Assembly: GCF_014189505.1 (NCBI RefSeq)
Contig: NZ_CP050301.1
Coordinates: forward strand, 1,433,501-1,497,500
DNA length: 64,000 bases
DNA from: Phyllobacterium sp. 628
GTDB taxonomy: Bacteria > Pseudomonadota > Alphaproteobacteria > Rhizobiales > Rhizobiaceae
Direction: 5' to 3'
Shown here: positions 5,657 to 13,457 of the stretch, piece after piece
How the letters are laid out: each line of letters begins with the position of its first letter
Position numbering within the stretch: position 1 is the first letter of the stretch
Translations under genes and position numbers: made by a program
Notes under the pieces: generated by a model
What the model was told of the DNA's origin: nothing
Seen by the model: only the letters and a program-made list of their open reading frames with translations
Databases searched by the model: none

Positions 5657-6394
5657 TTAAGCGGTTGCTTCGAGAAAAGACTTGGCTTCGGCGTCAATCC
5701 TGATGGCGCTGAGGCGACCACTGGCATAAGCGCCGGTATCAAGATTAACCCGGTTCTGCCGCACTTCAACATCGCTGGCCGGTGTATGGCCATGGATGAT
5801 CACCTTGGAATGCAGGTGCGGATCGTCAAGAAAATCCCAGCGTATCCAGATCAAATCCTCGGGATTTTGCCGCTCCAGATCGACACCGGGCCGGATGCCA
5901 GCATGGCAAAAGAAAAAATCACCCATAATGGTTGAGCGCCTTAGTCCTTGCAGAAACTCCACATGTGCGGCGGGTATAGCGCGCAGAAGCGCACTGCGCC
6001 CGGCAGCAACGGATGCCGGATCATAGAAATCAATGGTAACGCCATAGGATTTTGCAGTCTGCTTGCCGCCATGACGGGCGAAAACACCGTTTACATCGCT
6101 GCCGTTGAGAAAATCCAGAAATCCGACATCGTGATTGCCGGCAAGCGTTAGCATGCGATGTGTCTTCTTCTGTGCATTGACAAAATACTCCAGCACACCG
6201 CGCGAATCCGGGCCGCGATCGACATAATCACCCAGATGGACGACAACCCAGTCAAAGGGTGGAGTTTTTTCATTCTCGGCGAGAATACGCCGGTGCATCT
6301 CCTGCAACAGGTCGAGCCGGCCGTGCACATCACCGATGGCATAGACGCGCATTCGCTCGGGACCTCGGGCATGTTTGAAGTCGACAGTTTTCAT
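5657..6394 (-). CDS. metallophosphoesterase, PPP-type serine/threonine phosphatase family
   Basis: Calcineurin-like phosphoesterase of 245 residues. The metal-binding motifs are all present in order: IGDVHGRLD (about residue 19), GDYVDRGPDS (about 54), GNHD (about 84), a conserved FCHAGIRPG (about 160) and HGHTPA near residue 200. This matches PrpA/ApaH-like bacterial PPP phosphatases, which dephosphorylate phosphoproteins or dinucleoside polyphosphates in the cytosol. The ATG at 6394 (MKTVDFKHARG) is preceded by AGAGAG, and its codon overlaps the stop of the FadR-type gene by 4 bases, suggesting co-translation. The frame is open to 6445, but the extra residues are not family-like. Confidence 0.88.
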   Translation of the reverse strand: MKTVDFKHARGPERMRVYAIGDVHGRLDLLQEMHRRILAENEKTPPFDWVVVHLGDYVDRGPDSRGVLEYFVNAQKKTHRMLTLAGNHDVGFLDFLNGSDVNGVFARHGGKQTAKSYGVTIDFYDPASVAAGRSALLRAIPAAHVEFLQGLRRSTIMGDFFFCHAGIRPGVDLERQNPEDLIWIRWDFLDDPHLHSKVIIHGHTPASDVEVRQNRVNLDTGAYASGRLSAIRIDAEAKSFLEATA

Positions 6395-7173
6395 GTCCGG
6401 TCCGACTCTCTTTGACTGCGGCGCAGACGCGACGTGTTTTCCCACGCGCTGTTGCGGGCTGCTTCCTGTTGTGCCTGTTCAATGAAATCGATGTGCTGCC
6501 GCACCGCCGCCCGCGCCTTGACCGGGTCTGACGCCATGATCGCATCGAAAATAGCCTTGTGCTGGTGCAGCAATTGTTCCCGTGCACCTGGAAAGCCGTA
6601 GATGAGCGTGCGGTTGTAAAACACGTCATCAGCCAGAAGCCGGTAACATGAGCGTAGCGTGTGCAGAAGAATGATGTTGTGCGCACATTCGCCGATGGTG
6701 CTGTGGAGCTCGACATCAAGCTCCGCTTCTTTCTTGAAATCGTCGGTGTCGTAGGCGTGCTGCATCGCGTCCATGATATGCTGCAACAGTAAGCGGTCGT
6801 CTTCGGTTGCCCGCCGTGCGGCATATTCCGCCGCTATGCTTTCGATTTCCCGCCGGTATTCAAGATAGTCGGCCGCCGCCTTCCGGTGACTGGAAATCAG
6901 ATCCATCACCGGTTTGGAAAAGACTTCGCCGATGACGTCGGCAACAAAAGTACCCCCGCCATGCCGGGCGACAAGCAGGCCCTTGGCTTCCAATGTCTTC
7001 AGAGCACTGCGCAGTATTGGCCGCGACACGTCGAACTGAACAGCCAGGTCCCGTTCGCCCGGCAATTGATCCCCGACCCGCAACACGCCTTCAAGGATCA
7101 GCATCTCGATTTGGCTGACAATGTCATCGGCCGTGCGCGAAGATTGGATGCGGGCAAAGACGAGGCGGCTCAT
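6391..7173 (-). CDS. FadR/GntR family transcriptional regulator
   Basis: Ligand-responsive repressor or activator of about 260 residues. An N-terminal winged helix (about residues 5-75, with LRVGDQLPGERDLAVQFDVS and GGGTFVADV) is followed by an all-helical FCD effector domain (about 90-235) with metal-binding-type histidines. This is the PdhR/LldR/GlcC group, which senses carboxylates such as pyruvate, lactate or glycolate. The start at MSRLVFARI (7173) fits the family; the frame is open upstream to 7323. It sits 1.7 kb from the glycolate oxidase operon, with only the divergent DUF3422 gene between, so control of glcDEF by glycolate is a reasonable inference. A TGGT...ACCA palindrome before glcD (8796-8818) is a candidate site. 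Confidence 0.9.
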   Translation of the reverse strand: MSRLVFARIQSSRTADDIVSQIEMLILEGVLRVGDQLPGERDLAVQFDVSRPILRSALKTLEAKGLLVARHGGGTFVADVIGEVFSKPVMDLISSHRKAAADYLEYRREIESIAAEYAARRATEDDRLLLQHIMDAMQHAYDTDDFKKEAELDVELHSTIGECAHNIILLHTLRSCYRLLADDVFYNRTLIYGFPGAREQLLHQHKAIFDAIMASDPVKARAAVRQHIDFIEQAQQEAARNSAWENTSRLRRSQRESDRT

Positions 7174-7387
7174 AGTCAAACTGGTCCGTGCGAATGATTT
7201 TCTGCCGCAGCGTATCGGTAAATCGGCGAACTGGTCAATTCTTTGATCCACTTTGCCTGGCGCCTTGGCATCGTCGCTCGCATAAGCGTCGCATAGCCGC
7301 AGTCTCGTGGCGCAAAGGCGCATTGAAACACCATGGTATTGCGTTCACCATCCTGTGAATGCCGATCAAGGGGAAAGACCGGTTGAT

Positions 7388-8692
7388 ATGAAGGGGAAAA
7401 GACTAAGAACTGCAGCGGCAAGCGCTGCCTCAAGTTCGGGTGGCGTCATGGGCTTTCCGGCCCACGCGGAGCGTTCCGTGGCGTTGGGCGAAGTCCACGC
7501 CAGACCCTATCCTCTCGTGGATACACCGCGCCTGCTGATTCAGTTGGCTTTCATGACCGAAGGCGGATCGACAGTTGATCATGCGGTTCTGGCGGAACTT
7601 TCCCGCAGTATCGGCATAGCTTCTCCCGCCCGCGATGCAAGACATCACATTATGCCATGGGGCAATGGTACCTTGCGCTGGGAGCGTCATACGGAGTTCT
7701 CGACTTATTTGTGGGAAGGACCGATGCCGCGCGCTGGCCAGACGGCGCAACATCCATTCGGGCACGGTTTCAATCCGCCCGGCACGGTCATTGATGGCGT
7801 ACGGCTGGAGATCATCCGCAAGGACAGCAATGCTGCGGCGTTGATCGAGGAATTTGATCCGACAAGCCTCTGTTACAGCGATGTTGAGAATGGCCTTGCC
7901 TCGATCATTACGGATTTCCGCCAGGATGGCGACGGTATGACCCGCATTCTCATTCTCGATAACGGCTTGTCGCCGGCGCGCGCCGGGGCACTCTCTCAGC
8001 GTGTGATCGAAATCGAGACCTACCGCACGCTGGCAATGCTGGGGCTGCCGCTGGCGCATTCCCTGTCACCGCGCATCCGCCGTATTGAGGATCGTCTGGC
8101 GGGCCTGACCACGGAAATGCGCGCGCCGGATGCTGACAATCACAAATTGCTTGATGAGCTCACATCGCTGGCGGCGGAACTTGAAGCGGACGCAGCTTCG
8201 AGCCTTTACCGGTTTGGTGCCAGCCGCGCCTATAACGGTATTGTACTGGAGCGCTTGGCGGCATTGCAGGAAGAACCGGTAACAGGCTACGAAACCTGGG
8301 CGGCATTCATCCAGCGCCGTATGGCACCTGCCATGCGCACCTGCCGTTCTGTCAGTGGCAGACAAGAAAACCTTTCCGAGAAACTGTCACGCGCCGCAAC
8401 CTTGCTGCGCACGTCGGTGGATGTCGAGTTGGAGCGGCAGAACCGTGATCTCTTAAGCTCCATGAACCGGCGTGCACAGCTGCAATTGCGTCTGCAGCAT
8501 ACGGTGGAAGGCCTGTCGGTCGCAGCAATTTCATACTATGTTGTTGGTCTGTTTTTCTACCTTGCCAAAGGGGCGGAAAGCTACAATCCGGATTTGCATT
8601 CTTCGGTGCTGACTGCCGCCTTTGTGCCCGTTGCGATCATCGCCATGTGGTTCGTGGTGAAGTCGATCCGCAAATCCCACAATGATGATTGA
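7388..8692 (+). CDS. DUF3422 family membrane-anchored protein
   Basis: A 434-residue member of the DUF3422 family, widespread in proteobacteria and without known activity. The N-terminal part contains the family-typical ALGEVHARPYPLVDTPR, the middle is mostly helical, and the C-terminus has two predicted membrane segments (AISYYVVGLFFYLAKG and LTAAFVPVAIIAMWFVVK) followed by a short basic tail. The N-terminal bulk is therefore probably cytosolic. The ATG at 7388 has AAGGGGAAAG about 10 bases upstream; an internal ATG at 7448 (MGFPAHAERS) is an alternative. It lies between the FadR-type regulator (divergent) and glcD (same strand), which suggests but does not prove a link to carboxylate metabolism. 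Confidence 0.85.
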   Translation: MKGKRLRTAAASAASSSGGVMGFPAHAERSVALGEVHARPYPLVDTPRLLIQLAFMTEGGSTVDHAVLAELSRSIGIASPARDARHHIMPWGNGTLRWERHTEFSTYLWEGPMPRAGQTAQHPFGHGFNPPGTVIDGVRLEIIRKDSNAAALIEEFDPTSLCYSDVENGLASIITDFRQDGDGMTRILILDNGLSPARAGALSQRVIEIETYRTLAMLGLPLAHSLSPRIRRIEDRLAGLTTEMRAPDADNHKLLDELTSLAAELEADAASSLYRFGASRAYNGIVLERLAALQEEPVTGYETWAAFIQRRMAPAMRTCRSVSGRQENLSEKLSRAATLLRTSVDVELERQNRDLLSSMNRRAQLQLRLQHTVEGLSVAAISYYVVGLFFYLAKGAESYNPDLHSSVLTAAFVPVAIIAMWFVVKSIRKSHNDD

Positions 8693-8795
8693 TTGAATGC
8701 GCTGCTCTTCTCATAACTGCGCGTCACTTTGGCTGTGAGCAAATGCATGACGGCGGCGTGGCAAAAGTTTAGACTGTTTACAAATTGGAGAGGTG

Positions 8796-8818
8796 ACTGG
8801 TAAACATATTTTACCAGT
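8796..8818 (+). promoter_or_regulatory. perfect palindrome upstream of glcD, candidate GntR/FadR-type operator
   Basis: ACTGGTAAA (8796-8804) and TTTACCAGT (8810-8818) form perfect 9-base arms around CATAT, ending 29 bases before the glcD start. The outer TGGT/ACCA halves resemble FadR-family half-sites, but the usual spacing is TGGT-N3-ACCA whereas here 11 bases separate them. The FadR-type regulator at 6391-7173 is the obvious candidate ligand. Confidence 0.55.
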
Positions 8819-8847
8819 GGCCGCTATCTACTGGAGAGGGAGGGTGC

Positions 8848-10344
8848 ATGTCCGGGTTGGTGATGCCGAAAGCCGATGCGGCGACCATGTCGCACCGCAG
8901 CGAAATCGTCGCCGCCCTGCGTGCTATTGTTCCCGGCGAAGGCGTCGTTGATGTGACCAACGAAATGCGGGCTTTTGAATCCGATGCCCTGACGGCCTAT
9001 CACCAGCTGCCGCTGGTTGTCGTTCTGCCCCAGACAGTCGCTCAGGTGTCTAAAATCCTCAAATATTGCCATGAGAACAACGTGAAAGTCGTGCCGCGCG
9101 GCTCCGGCACTTCGCTCTCCGGCGGTGCGCTGCCGCTGGAAGATGCGGTGCTGCTGGTCATGTCGCGGTTCAATCGTATTCTCGAAATCGATTATCCCAA
9201 CCGTGTTGCCGTTGTGCAGCCGGGTGTGACCAATCTTGGCATCACGAAAGCCGTGGAGCACGAAGGCTTTTACTACGCTCCAGATCCTTCTTCGCAAATC
9301 GCCTGCTCCATCGGCGGCAATGTTGCTGAAAATTCCGGCGGCGTGCATTGCCTGAAATATGGACTTACCGCCAACAATGTCCTCGGCCTCGAAATTGTGC
9401 TCATTTCAGGCGAGGTCATCCGGCTTGGCGGCAAGCATCTGGATTCCGAGGGCTATGACCTTCTCGGGTTGATGACCGGCTCGGAAGGCCTGCTCGGCGT
9501 GGTCACTGAAGTGACGGTCCGCATCCTGCAAAAGCCCGCCACGGCGCGCGCCTTGATGGTGGGCTTTCCCACCAGCGAAGCAGCGGGGCAATGCGTTGCC
9601 GATATCATCGCTGCCGGTATCATCCCGGGCGGCATGGAGATGATGGACCGCCCGGCAATCCATGCGGCTGAGGATTTCGTTCATGCGGGTTATCCGCTTG
9701 ATGTGGAAGCGCTGCTGATCATCGAACTTGATGGACCGGCAATCGAGGTCGATCATCTGATTGATATGGTCGAGACCATTGCCAACAGAAACGATGCTTC
9801 GTCCTGCGTGATTTCGCAGAGCGAAGAAGAGCGCATGTCATTCTGGGCGGGCCGCAAGGCGGCCTTTCCGGCTGTCGGGCGTATCTCTCCAGATTATCTC
9901 TGCATGGATGGCACGATCCCCCGCAAGGAATTGCCGAAGGTGCTGGCGGGAATGCGCGAGCTTTCGGAAAAATACGGTTTGCGCGTTGCCAACGTGTTTC
10001 ATGCGGGCGATGGCAATCTGCATCCGCTTATCCTTTATGATGCGAATATCCCGGATGAATTGCGCAAGGCGGAAGACTTTGGCGCAGACATTCTGCGGCT
10101 GTGCGTCAAGGTGGGCGGCGTTCTCACCGGAGAACATGGCGTGGGTGTGGAAAAGCGCGACCTCATGCCGGAAATGTTCAACGAGATTGACCTGAACCAG
10201 CAAATCCGGGTGAAATGCGCCTTTGACGACAAGCACCTGCTCAATCCGGGCAAGGTGTTTCCGCAATTGCACCGCTGCGCCGAACTTGGCCGTATGCATG
10301 TGCATCGCGGTCAGGTGCCGTTTCCAGATATTCCGAGATTTTAG
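8848..10344 (+). CDS. glcD: glycolate oxidase subunit GlcD (FAD-linked oxidase)
   Basis: FAD-carrying catalytic subunit of the glycolate (D-2-hydroxyacid) oxidase complex, which oxidises glycolate to glyoxylate and passes electrons through GlcF to the respiratory chain. The 498 residues match the family length. An FAD_binding_4 domain includes VPRGSGTSLSGGALPLEDAV (about residues 88-107) and IGGNVAENSGGVHCLKYGLT (about 155-174). The C-terminal FAD-oxidase domain includes VFHAGDGNLHPLI and GGVLTGEHGVGVEKR. Its ATG follows a strong GGAGAGGGAGGG site. It heads a compact operon: an ASCH-domain gene begins 3 bases after its stop, then glcE and glcF. Confidence 0.95.
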   Translation: MSGLVMPKADAATMSHRSEIVAALRAIVPGEGVVDVTNEMRAFESDALTAYHQLPLVVVLPQTVAQVSKILKYCHENNVKVVPRGSGTSLSGGALPLEDAVLLVMSRFNRILEIDYPNRVAVVQPGVTNLGITKAVEHEGFYYAPDPSSQIACSIGGNVAENSGGVHCLKYGLTANNVLGLEIVLISGEVIRLGGKHLDSEGYDLLGLMTGSEGLLGVVTEVTVRILQKPATARALMVGFPTSEAAGQCVADIIAAGIIPGGMEMMDRPAIHAAEDFVHAGYPLDVEALLIIELDGPAIEVDHLIDMVETIANRNDASSCVISQSEEERMSFWAGRKAAFPAVGRISPDYLCMDGTIPRKELPKVLAGMRELSEKYGLRVANVFHAGDGNLHPLILYDANIPDELRKAEDFGADILRLCVKVGGVLTGEHGVGVEKRDLMPEMFNEIDLNQQIRVKCAFDDKHLLNPGKVFPQLHRCAELGRMHVHRGQVPFPDIPRF

Positions 10345-10347
10345 GCG

Positions 10348-10917
10348 ATGCTCTTCAAGGCGCAAACACTCGAGGCCATTGCACGCGGCGACGTTGATCT
10401 GGCGTTCCGGCGCTGGACCCGTCCGACCGTCAAGGCGGGCACCCGCCTTCGCACACTCATCGGTGTTGTTGTCATCGGCGACGTCATAGCCATTGATTCA
10501 GACAAACTCACAGCGGAAGACGCCAGACGTGCCGGTTTTGCCACTGTCGATGCACTCACCCGAGAACTGCGCGCCATCGACGGAACACTCTACCGCATAT
10601 CAATCACCGGCGTTGAGCCCGACGAACGAACCACTTTACGCGAAGAAGCTCTCTTGGAACCGGACATCGCCGAACTGGCGATGCGTCTTGCACGCTGGGA
10701 CAGCGCGGCATCATCAGCCGGATATCACCGCCAGATATTGCAGCTGATTGCCGATCATCCCGGAACAGTGGCTGCTGATCTGGCCAGGCAGTTCAATGTG
10801 GAAACAGCAAAATTCAAGCGCGATGTCCGCAAGCTCAAGGAAGTCGGTTTGACCATCAGTCTCGGCACTGGCTACCGGCTGTCGCCACGCGGCAAAAGCT
10901 TTCTGGATGCGCAATGA
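10348..10917 (+). CDS. ASCH (PUA-like) domain protein with C-terminal winged helix, inside the glc operon
   Basis: A 189-residue protein between glcD and glcE. Residues about 1-85 look like an ASCH domain (MLFKAQTLEAIARGDVDLAF..RRWTRP..LRTLIGVVVIGDV), a PUA-related fold thought to bind RNA or modified nucleic acid. Residues about 125-189 look like a winged helix (HPGTVAADLARQFNVETAKF then the wing-like ISLGTGYRLSPRGKSFL). It starts 3 bases after the glcD stop and ends 1 base before the glcE ATG, so it is tightly co-translated. GlcDEF biochemistry does not require such a protein. It may regulate the operon or RNA metabolism, or be an unrelated passenger. The domain call is by pattern only. Confidence 0.75.
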   Translation: MLFKAQTLEAIARGDVDLAFRRWTRPTVKAGTRLRTLIGVVVIGDVIAIDSDKLTAEDARRAGFATVDALTRELRAIDGTLYRISITGVEPDERTTLREEALLEPDIAELAMRLARWDSAASSAGYHRQILQLIADHPGTVAADLARQFNVETAKFKRDVRKLKEVGLTISLGTGYRLSPRGKSFLDAQ

Positions 10918-10918
10918 A

Positions 10919-12130
10919 ATGACAACATTTACCCCCGCAACCGAGGCCGAAATTGTTGATGCGGTGCAATGGGCACTGGCTGAGGGTGCGCCTGTCGAGG
11001 TTTGCGGCCATGGTTCCAAGCGCAAGCTCGGCCGTCCCTTGCAGACAGAACATACGATTGCGCTGACAGATTATTCCGGCGTGACACTTTACGAACCGGA
11101 TGAACTCGTTCTGAGCGCCAAGGCGGGAACGCCGATAGCTGAACTTGAAGCCCTGCTCGCCTCCAAGGGGCAAGCATTCCAGTTCGAACCCATGGATTAT
11201 GGTCCGCTGCTGGGCGAAGCTGCCGGGCAGGGCAGTCTTGGCGGTGTGCTTGCCACCAATCTCTGCGGTCCGCGCCGGTTGAAGGCTGGGTCCGCACGCG
11301 ATCATGTGCTGGGTGTGCGGGTTGTTTCGGGCCGGGGTGAACTGTTTAAATCCGGTGGCCGTGTCGTCAAGAATGTCACCGGTTACGATCTGTCCAAGGG
11401 CATGGCCAATTCCTGGGGTACGCTCGGGATTGCCACGGAAATCACCTTCAAGGTTTTGCCGGCACCGGAAACGGAAACAACGCTCATCGTTCGTGGTCTT
11501 ACCGATGACGAGGCGACACGCGCCATGGCAATCGCCATGGGTTCAAGCGGTGAAGTCGCGTCCGCCGCGCACCTGCCGCTCAATATCTGTTCCCGTGTCA
11601 TCGATGGTCTGTTGAAGGGTGATGCTTCTACGCTGCTGCGGCTCGAAGGCTTTGCGCCTTCCGTTGCCGACCGGGTAACCATGTTGAAAGGCCTGCTCGG
11701 CTCTGCCGGCTCCATTCAGGAAATATCCGGCGATGTCTCGCGCAAGCTCTGGCAGGAAGTGCGCGACGTTATTCCTTTTGCCGATGGTACGGAACGTCCG
11801 GTCTGGCGTGTCTCCATGGCACCGATGGAAGCTTATAAACTCGTGGCCTCCATGCGCATGGGGGCGGCGGTCGATGCCTACTATGACTGGCAGGGCGGAT
11901 TGGTATGGTTGCGGCTCGACGGTGATCCGGAAGCCGAGGCTGTGCGCGTTCTCGTCAAGAAGTTCGGCGGCGGCCACGCAACGCTTGTGCGTGCGCCGGT
12001 GGCGATACGTGCCGCCATTCCGGTGTTCGAACCGCAGGCCGCAGCGCTGGCTGCCCTGTCAACGCGGCTGAAACAGCAATTTGATCCGGAGGCTATCCTC
12101 AATCCGGGCCGTATGGTTGCAGGAGTGTAG
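10919..12130 (+). CDS. glcE: glycolate oxidase subunit GlcE (FAD-binding)
   Basis: Second FAD-binding subunit of glycolate oxidase, about 403 residues. The FAD_binding_4 region is seen as APVEVCGHGSKRKLGRPLQ (about residues 24-42), AGTPIAELEALL, and GSLGGVLATNLCGPRR with RDHVLGVRVVSGRGE (about 100-140). A shorter C-terminal half ends ILNPGRMVAGV. The ATG at 10919 (MTTFTPATEAE) is chosen because the preceding ASCH gene stops at 10917; an in-frame ATG at 10907 would overlap it. It is followed 1 base later by glcF. Confidence 0.92.
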   Translation: MTTFTPATEAEIVDAVQWALAEGAPVEVCGHGSKRKLGRPLQTEHTIALTDYSGVTLYEPDELVLSAKAGTPIAELEALLASKGQAFQFEPMDYGPLLGEAAGQGSLGGVLATNLCGPRRLKAGSARDHVLGVRVVSGRGELFKSGGRVVKNVTGYDLSKGMANSWGTLGIATEITFKVLPAPETETTLIVRGLTDDEATRAMAIAMGSSGEVASAAHLPLNICSRVIDGLLKGDASTLLRLEGFAPSVADRVTMLKGLLGSAGSIQEISGDVSRKLWQEVRDVIPFADGTERPVWRVSMAPMEAYKLVASMRMGAAVDAYYDWQGGLVWLRLDGDPEAEAVRVLVKKFGGGHATLVRAPVAIRAAIPVFEPQAAALAALSTRLKQQFDPEAILNPGRMVAGV

Positions 12131-12131
12131 G

Positions 12132-13457
12132 ATGCAAACCAATTTCACGCCGCAACAATTGCTCGACCCTGATGTTGCCGAGTCGGAAAAAATCCTGCGC
12201 AAATGTGTGCATTGCGGATTTTGTACCGCAACATGCCCGACCTACGTGACGCTTGGCAATGAGCTCGACAGTCCGCGCGGCCGCATTTACCTGATCAAGG
12301 ACATGTTGGAAAATGGCCGTCCGGCTGATGAGCAGATCGTCAAACATGTGGATCGCTGTCTGTCCTGCCTTGCCTGCATGACCACGTGTCCGTCCGGCGT
12401 GAATTATATGCATCTGGTCGACCATGCCCGCGCCCACATTGAAAAGACCTATAAACGTCCACTCATGAACCGTCTGTCCCGTGCGCTGCTGGCTTTCGTG
12501 TTGCCGCATCCCTCGCGCCTGCGTCTGTCACTGAATGCTGCAAAACTGGGTCGGCCTTTCCTGCCGTTGTTCAATTCTGTTTCGGCGCTGAAACCCATCG
12601 CCGCCATGCTCGCCTTGGCGCCCAAATCTGTTCCGGCGAAGTCGCATTTTGCTGAACCCGGGCTGCACCCGGCAACGAAAACCAGGCGCGGCAGGGTGGC
12701 TATTCTGACCGGTTGTGCCCAGCCGGTGCTGAAGCCCGGTATCAATGAAGCCACAATCCGGCTCTTGACCCGTCTCGGTATTGAAGTGGTGGTGCCGAAA
12801 GGCGAGGGCTGCTGCGGCTCTCTTGTCCATCATATGGGCCGGGAAGACGCGGCGCTGGACGACGCGCGCCGCAATGTCGACGTCTGGACACGCGAGCTGC
12901 AAAATGGCGGTCTCGATGCGATTGTGATCACTGCTTCCGGCTGCGGAACCACAATCAAGGATTACGGGTACATGCTGCGGCTTGATCCGGCTTACAGTGA
13001 AAAAGCTTCAGTCGTTTCCGGTCTTGCCAAGGATATTACCGAGTATCTGACGACACTTGATCTGCCTGCACCGCAGCAGCCTTCAGGACTTGTCGTCGCG
13101 TATCATTCCGCCTGTTCCATGCAGCATGGCCAGAAACTGACGCATCAGCCGAAAGACCTGCTGAAAGCGGCTGGCTTCACGGTGAAGGACCCGGCGGAGG
13201 GCCATCTTTGCTGCGGCTCAGCCGGAACCTACAACATCATGCAGCCGGAGATCGCCAAGACGTTGCGCGACCGCAAGGTGAAGAACATCGAGGCGACAGG
13301 AGCCAGCATCATTGCTACGGGCAATATCGGCTGCATCACGCAGATTGCCAGCGCTGCGAAAATGCCGATTGTTCACACGGTGGAATTGCTGGATTGGGTC
13401 TATGGCGGACCACGACCGGAAGGTGTGGCCGCACTCACCCTGCAGGCCGCGGAATAG
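12132..13457 (+). CDS. glcF: glycolate oxidase iron-sulfur subunit GlcF
   Basis: Electron-transfer subunit of glycolate oxidase, 441 residues. Two [4Fe-4S] ferredoxin motifs are clear: CVHCGFCTATCPTYV (about residues 22-36) and CLSCLACMTTCPSGV (about 76-90). Two cysteine-rich CCG domains follow (GEGCCGSLVHHMG about 230 and GHLCCGSAGTYNI about 355), as in heterodisulfide-reductase-like subunits. The start at 12132 follows AGGAGTGTAGG; the frame is open upstream but that part lies in glcE. It is the last gene of the operon, with a double hairpin terminator just beyond (13467-13519). Confidence 0.95.
   Translation: MQTNFTPQQLLDPDVAESEKILRKCVHCGFCTATCPTYVTLGNELDSPRGRIYLIKDMLENGRPADEQIVKHVDRCLSCLACMTTCPSGVNYMHLVDHARAHIEKTYKRPLMNRLSRALLAFVLPHPSRLRLSLNAAKLGRPFLPLFNSVSALKPIAAMLALAPKSVPAKSHFAEPGLHPATKTRRGRVAILTGCAQPVLKPGINEATIRLLTRLGIEVVVPKGEGCCGSLVHHMGREDAALDDARRNVDVWTRELQNGGLDAIVITASGCGTTIKDYGYMLRLDPAYSEKASVVSGLAKDITEYLTTLDLPAPQQPSGLVVAYHSACSMQHGQKLTHQPKDLLKAAGFTVKDPAEGHLCCGSAGTYNIMQPEIAKTLRDRKVKNIEATGASIIATGNIGCITQIASAAKMPIVHTVELLDWVYGGPRPEGVAALTLQAAE

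Follow-up and report, generated by a model that had tools for sequence, protein, structure and literature searches.

For a protein predicted to join an ASCH domain to a winged helix, the closest points of comparison come from four directions. Escherichia coli YqfB (PDB 9kyf, 1te7) is an N4-acetylcytidine amidohydrolase with an ASCH fold, for which the available portion of PMC6972931 reports that the mutants K21A, T24A and R26A are inactive and that E74A is strongly impaired. Predicted toxin-antitoxin operons of the (PIN)-GNAT-EVE type contain HTH-ASCH fusions; in the accessible text of PMC7641849 these come mostly from alphaproteobacteria, their HTH belongs to the XRE family, and GNAT and EVE genes lie alongside. 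Winged-helix DNA-binding domains are found in CggR, together with a sugar-binding domain, and in MarR proteins. Finally, integration hotspots for toxin-antitoxin and defence genes are a known kind of locus, at which differing small genes turn over repeatedly at one chromosomal place.

The glycolate oxidase operon in the window (the whole stretch of DNA that was analysed, 64,000 nucleotides of Phyllobacterium sp. 628, from a genus of plant-associated bacteria) contains between glcD and glcE a small gene, here called X, which can be set beside each of these systems. Residues 1-89 of its product share the ASCH fold with YqfB and keep the arginine proposed for the YqfB oxyanion hole (as given in the available portion of the source), but they lack the Thr-Lys-Glu triad and are followed by an extra C-terminal winged helix. 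As in the fusions described in the accessible text of PMC7641849, an ASCH domain is joined to a helix-turn-helix, although in X this is a C-terminal winged helix and the neighbours are glcD and glcE. The C-domain resembles the winged helices of CggR and MarR with Z scores of about 10-11, but its partner is an ASCH domain, and the 189 aa in total include no CggR sugar-binding domain. Like an integration hotspot, the glcD-glcE junction has seen repeated turnover of differing small genes, but this slot lies inside a three-gene enzyme operon, and its named tenants are co-directional and number one or two genes each time. The literature searched gave no account of the glcD-glcE slot and no pairing of an ASCH domain with glycolate oxidase. 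On balance, we think it somewhat probable that X is a mostly vertically inherited, long-resident tenant of an operon-internal exchange slot, and a regulator or sensor with targets beyond GlcDEF.

Gene X and its operon

The original prediction had placed a 189-residue gene between glcD and glcE with spacings of 3 nt and 1 nt, and this is borne out by the open reading frame (Table 1): the TAG stop of glcD (10342-10344) is followed after 3 nt by the ATG start of X, and the TGA stop of X (10915-10917) leaves 1 nt before the ATG of glcE at 10919. Because its homologs align over their full length, with R21, W23, D92, R94, G175-Y176 and R181-G182 invariant in 54 sequences (M1-L2 nearly so), and because six pairs of X-bearing relatives give a dN/dS of 0.12-0.25, comparison of sequences indicates that X is a real gene under purifying selection. 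Across these pairs dS ranges over 0.58-2.9 for X and 0.39-1.9 for glcD, a ratio of 0.75-1.8, with saturation close once dS exceeds about 1.5. Since dS of X is similar to that of glcD and dN/dS is low, X has largely travelled with its flanking genes. It evolves faster than glcD (71% versus 96% identity between the window and the congener G149) and gives a single match per genome wherever it is found.

Among the flanking genes, glcF scores 463.5 bits against its NCBIfam model, above the cut-off of 333, glcE falls just short of its own (280.6 bits, cut-off 284), and glcD does not reach its cut-off of 897 with 701.5 bits (E 4.8e-211). A search for an X-specific operator upstream of glcD covered 21 genomes, including two of a different genus; read by eye, 4 of 5 genomes with X and 8 of 16 without it have the core of the operator-like palindrome, which therefore does not follow the presence of X. 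The divergent GntR-type gene and the 461-codon gene upstream of glcD, the latter of which we take to be DUF3422, are also found upstream in 16 of 27 glc-linked loci.

Table 1. Features of the glc locus, in positions of the window
Feature	Position	Strand	Basis or remark
Divergent GntR-type regulator gene	6391-7323	-	resembles PdhR, LldR, GlcC, under their cut-offs
461-codon gene, no NCBIfam match	7307-8692	+	upstream of glcD
Operator-like inverted repeat upstream of glcD	8789..8825	.	16-nt arms, 81% complementary
glcD, FAD-linked glycolate oxidase subunit	8848..10344	+	NCBIfam NF008408; Pfam FAD_binding_4, FAD-oxidase_C
X, predicted ASCH + winged-helix protein, glcD-glcE junction tenant	10348..10917	+	ORF; homologs; AlphaFold
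Predicted N-terminal ASCH domain of X, residues 1-89	10348..10614	+	VIA-align, Foldseek, global hhalign
Predicted C-terminal winged helix of X, about residues 116-189	10693..10914	+	VIA-align; sub-cut-off Pfam HTH
glcE, FAD-binding subunit	10919..12130	+	NCBIfam NF008439
glcF, iron-sulfur subunit	12132..13457	+	NCBIfam NF008434

Predicted fold and loss of the YqfB triad

The AlphaFold model of X, built with 19 homologs, has a mean pLDDT of 89.8 and a pTM of 0.56, so that the two domains appear well predicted and their mutual placement does not. The N-domain aligns with YqfB (9kyf) over 88 residues with a VIA-align Z of 11.9 and an rmsd of 2.1; the YqfB chains 9kyf and 9kyh are also the top Foldseek matches (E 2.2e-4, TM of the target 0.70), and a Zymomonas ASCH protein ranks next. 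Global hhalign pairs residues 1-89 of X with YqfB 6-103 at a probability of 46%, over the same range as the structural alignment, and the ASCH assignment is settled by the fold search together with this profile alignment. For the C-domain the best match is the DNA-binding domain of CggR (7oyk, Z 11.0), with MarR proteins reaching 10.8, and Pfam HTH models match under their cut-off (best E 0.002).

Searches with sequence gave weaker signals. Pfam ASCH (PF04266) has no match in X at E<=1 and its gathering score is not reached, and 9 of 54 relatives match it at E<=1, the best (0.0032) still under the cut-off. The ASCH domain was not detected in comparisons of the protein with Pfam, NCBIfam and PHROGs; phmmer and profile searches of the PDB returned HTH parts, a chance myoglobin and a few other weak matches; and a profile of X did not match three alphaproteobacterial ASCH proteins. 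None of the libraries searched names the family above its own cut-off. The two-domain architecture proposed from the sequence has nevertheless held up in the structure prediction and fold search, which support an ASCH N-domain and a winged-helix C-domain, with Pfam ASCH staying below its cut-off.

In the profile alignment (probability 46%) the YqfB triad is replaced throughout: K21 corresponds to V16, T24 to A19 and E74 to A62, and the 54 relatives have at these positions V in 38, I in 14 and A in 2; A in 50; and A in 50 and S in 4. YqfB R26, by contrast with the triad, is retained as R21 in all 54 sequences. Since X lacks the Thr-Lys-Glu triad, it is unlikely to carry out YqfB chemistry, and its ASCH domain may bind without hydrolysis.

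Turnover in the glcD-glcE junction

The occupancy of the junction was scored in the window and 120 other genomes with a glcD of at least 78% identity, among the matches listed. Of these 121, 119 were scorable, the regions of G086 and G211 having ended before glcE; the partial matches G066 and G158 and GlcD relatives at 55-59% lie outside the census. The slot is empty in 54 genomes; in 13 it contains X, in 47 it is taken by other named genes, and in 5 it consists of 207-752 nt of unclassified DNA. Gaps of up to 130 nt were counted as empty, an arbitrary limit; two of these, 121 and 106 nt long, contain short frames, one of which resembles repeats in other gaps. X stands alone in 7 of its 13 slots and is accompanied by DUF559 in 4 and by Uma2 in 2. 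The 47 other slots hold DUF559 (17), MazE plus PIN (14) or Uma2 (12), with one case each of SLATT, HNH plus MazE, HNH plus DUF559 and an unknown gene plus Uma2. Tenant representatives match Pfam with E values of 6.6e-33 (DUF559), 3.2e-17 (Uma2), 6.2e-10 (PIN), 2.3e-6 (MazE antitoxin) and 4.3e-12 (HNH); in PADLOC the SLATT tenant, whose Pfam SLATT matches are under the cut-off, matches a 2TM effector model (3.6e-25), and the HNH tenant a type IV restriction model (2.3e-21). DUF559 and Uma2 are distant kin of nucleases. In the 106 genomes without X in the junction, a search that scored at most 13 candidates per genome found no full-length X elsewhere, and fragments in G068 and G220. This search, of which the census is independent, covered 247 genomes of the window's family, the Rhizobiaceae, and found X in 21, two of them with fragments.

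When slot states (six classes, one mixed) are mapped on the glcD protein tree of the 119 rows, at least 44 changes are needed, compared with a mean of 60.1 for shuffled states and a least possible number of 5; the X label needs 9, and in all such counts gain and loss are indistinguishable. The states are thus clustered, and part of the pattern reflects inheritance and loss: by this comparison the slot appears partly inherited yet often turned over. As a control, the gcvT-gcvP span holding gcvH measures 424-501 nt in 55 of 55 scorable genomes, with no gene-sized insert in either junction, whereas 30 of these 55 have more than 500 nt between glcD and glcE; the control drew on 60 of the 121 genomes, those at the head of the glcD similarity list, and as a single operon it is thin evidence on how exceptional the slot may be.

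The boundaries of tenants are of several kinds. With ORF starts set mechanically, which makes the counts approximate, 42 of the 60 slots that contain named genes have a first tenant that begins no more than 15 nt after glcD. In 24 the last tenant ends no more than 15 nt before glcE, and in 14 both ends are tight. The MazE-PIN pair overlaps glcE by 4 nt in all 14 cases, a lone X ends at most 4 nt from glcE in 6 of 7 (37 nt in the seventh), and DUF559 tenants mostly leave at least 64 nt before glcE. Two-ended coupling therefore fits X but is not general for the slot.

Four DUF559 slots were inspected, and in each the gene is bounded by inverted repeats, 25-43 nt long and 84-100% complementary, like a small mobile cassette (L171:3012-3590, L126:3026-3581, L110:2426-2997, L117:2997-3584), and several other glcD-glcE gaps have, by eye, similar repeat-like sequence only. 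No repeats flanking X were found in the window. At L112 (genome G147; 1494-2588 of the re-oriented stretch) X and DUF559 share a single uninterrupted frame of roughly 360 codons and may be fused.

Spread of the family and loss of X

One scan of genome contigs confirmed at least 494 relatives of X, the best 80 of which belong to Pseudomonadota, Actinomycetota, Chloroflexota, Planctomycetota, Acidobacteriota, Myxococcota and Bacillota. Among these best 80, 27 loci are glc-linked: glcD and glcE are both present at 26 of them, and L025 has glcE and glcF only. At the thresholds applied, the remaining 53, a number of which lie on short contigs, show no glc gene in their vicinity. Since the best 80 are the closest relatives, the glc-linked share is probably lower across the whole family. 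In a tree of the best 80 loci, the window and 9 of 18 other full-length loci, all glc-linked X from the window's family, 29 rows, group together in a single clade with a support of 99, and 28 of these rows have both glcD and glcE. The X of Afipia, which also lies between glcD and glcE, falls outside this clade on the quick tree. The AU test does not reject a tree in which every glc-linked X belongs to a single clade (p 0.69), and a separate entry of X in Afipia, which the quick tree had suggested, was dropped on this account.

Outside glc operons, clustering of neighbour ORFs (with a crude gene caller) found no recurrent partner, and Pfam assignments for 67 of 73 codon-bias-filtered neighbour ORFs found no constant one, the commonest family accounting for 6 of 67 and GNAT for 2 of 67. 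In three annotated plasmid loci (L227, L229 and L230, from Devosia, Agrobacterium and Tsukamurella) a GNAT acetyltransferase gene adjoins the X relative in two and a Phd/VapC pair in one. No relative was confirmed in viral contigs and none was found in 50,697 phage records. PADLOC matches to X span residues 127-186 only, the HTH part, and no defence protein matched beyond it.

Conservation of glcD-X-glcE in many genera had been proposed as support for a functional link. The arrangement does recur in Phyllobacterium, Mesorhizobium, Aminobacter, Nitratireductor, Chelativorans, Aliihoeflea and Afipia, but among close relatives X accompanies glcDEF in no more than 13 of 119 genomes, and within the genus in 5 of 20 (the window's own included), always in the slot. 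Of the 15 members of the genus without X, 14 have an empty or nearly empty junction and one has 277 nt of other DNA. X has been lost in some relatives: G305, the sister of the X-bearing G311, retains a 14-codon stub whose start, MLLK, resembles that of X and whose end lies just before glcE. In G217 the beginning of X is retained behind a DUF559 gene, as are, by eye, its last residues.

Discussion

In many relatives nothing occupies the glcD-glcE slot, and in many others it carries different small genes, mostly toxin-antitoxin or endonuclease-like, which usually start close behind glcD. Arrangements that let translation run on into glcE would survive best, and a tenant would gain operon expression without halting glcE; such selection for coupling would fit X and the MazE-PIN pair, but not all tenants. 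The predicted folds suggest that X could act as a one-component regulator or sensor. Its ASCH domain would bind a nucleoside, a modified base or RNA, without the hydrolysis known from YqfB, and its winged helix would bind DNA, at targets that are probably not specific to GlcDEF and may lie outside the glc operon.

Tight coupling was originally taken to imply feedback on GlcDEF, and a dedicated regulator of glcDEF, acting at the promoter or the transcript, is the alternative that deserves most attention, although we regard it as unlikely. The coupled position between glcD and glcE, the single clade of 29 glc-linked X, purifying selection and the presence of the Afipia X in the same junction all speak for it, and the confinement of X to glc operons within its clade, with the Afipia junction, could reflect a real link with glycolate metabolism. 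A purpose directed at GlcDEF is, however, weakened by the absence of X from the junction in 106 of 119 relatives that have the operon and, within the genus, in 15 of 20, the scar of its loss in G305, the other named genes that occupy the same place in 47 of 119, the 53 of the best 80 family loci that have no glc gene nearby and a palindrome that is not tied to X; moreover, a divergent GntR-type regulator gene is already present upstream. More doubtful is a role of X as the part of a toxin-antitoxin or phage-defence system that recognises modified nucleic acid. Toxin-antitoxin and defence-like genes are among the slot's other tenants, HTH-ASCH fusions are placed in predicted (PIN)-GNAT-EVE operons in the accessible text of PMC7641849, and the plasmid loci have GNAT and Phd/VapC neighbours, but the direct flanks of X are glcD and glcE and not GNAT, PIN or EVE genes, GNAT is rare among the non-glc neighbours, which offer no recurrent partner, the PADLOC matches are restricted to the HTH part, and the viral contigs and phage records yielded no confirmed relative. 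That X clears acylated nucleosides as a YqfB-like amidohydrolase is very improbable, even with YqfB as its closest solved fold: Lys, Thr and Glu are all replaced by conserved residues incapable of the same role, and loss of the first two in K21A and T24A abolishes the activity of YqfB, according to the available portion of PMC6972931.

The long-resident tenant with targets beyond GlcDEF is thus the reading that we prefer, and it bears on a common practice. Coupling within an operon is often read as a functional link, and such guilt by operon association can mislead, since at least six gene types, as judged by Pfam family or similarity, occupy one junction within one family while the control operon is free of inserts in 55 genomes. 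With its empty, filled and scarred alleles, the junction lends itself to the study of why certain operon junctions take up inserts. The analysis also brings to light an ASCH-wHTH family that is widespread, with at least 494 relatives, and has lost the YqfB triad. A broader proposal, which we put forward tentatively and consider rather unlikely as a whole, is that the junction is a docking slot lending operon expression to rotating nucleic-acid modules of one or two genes, and that the ASCH-wHTH protein is a stand-alone sensor of modified nucleosides or bases, with a non-catalytic pocket and a DNA switch.

The glcE-glcF junction is variable too. It contains a DUF4870 gene in 55 of 119 genomes and DUF433, with or without a DUF5615-like neighbour, in 25, the two kinds occurring together in 6; it is empty in 40 and holds something else in 5.
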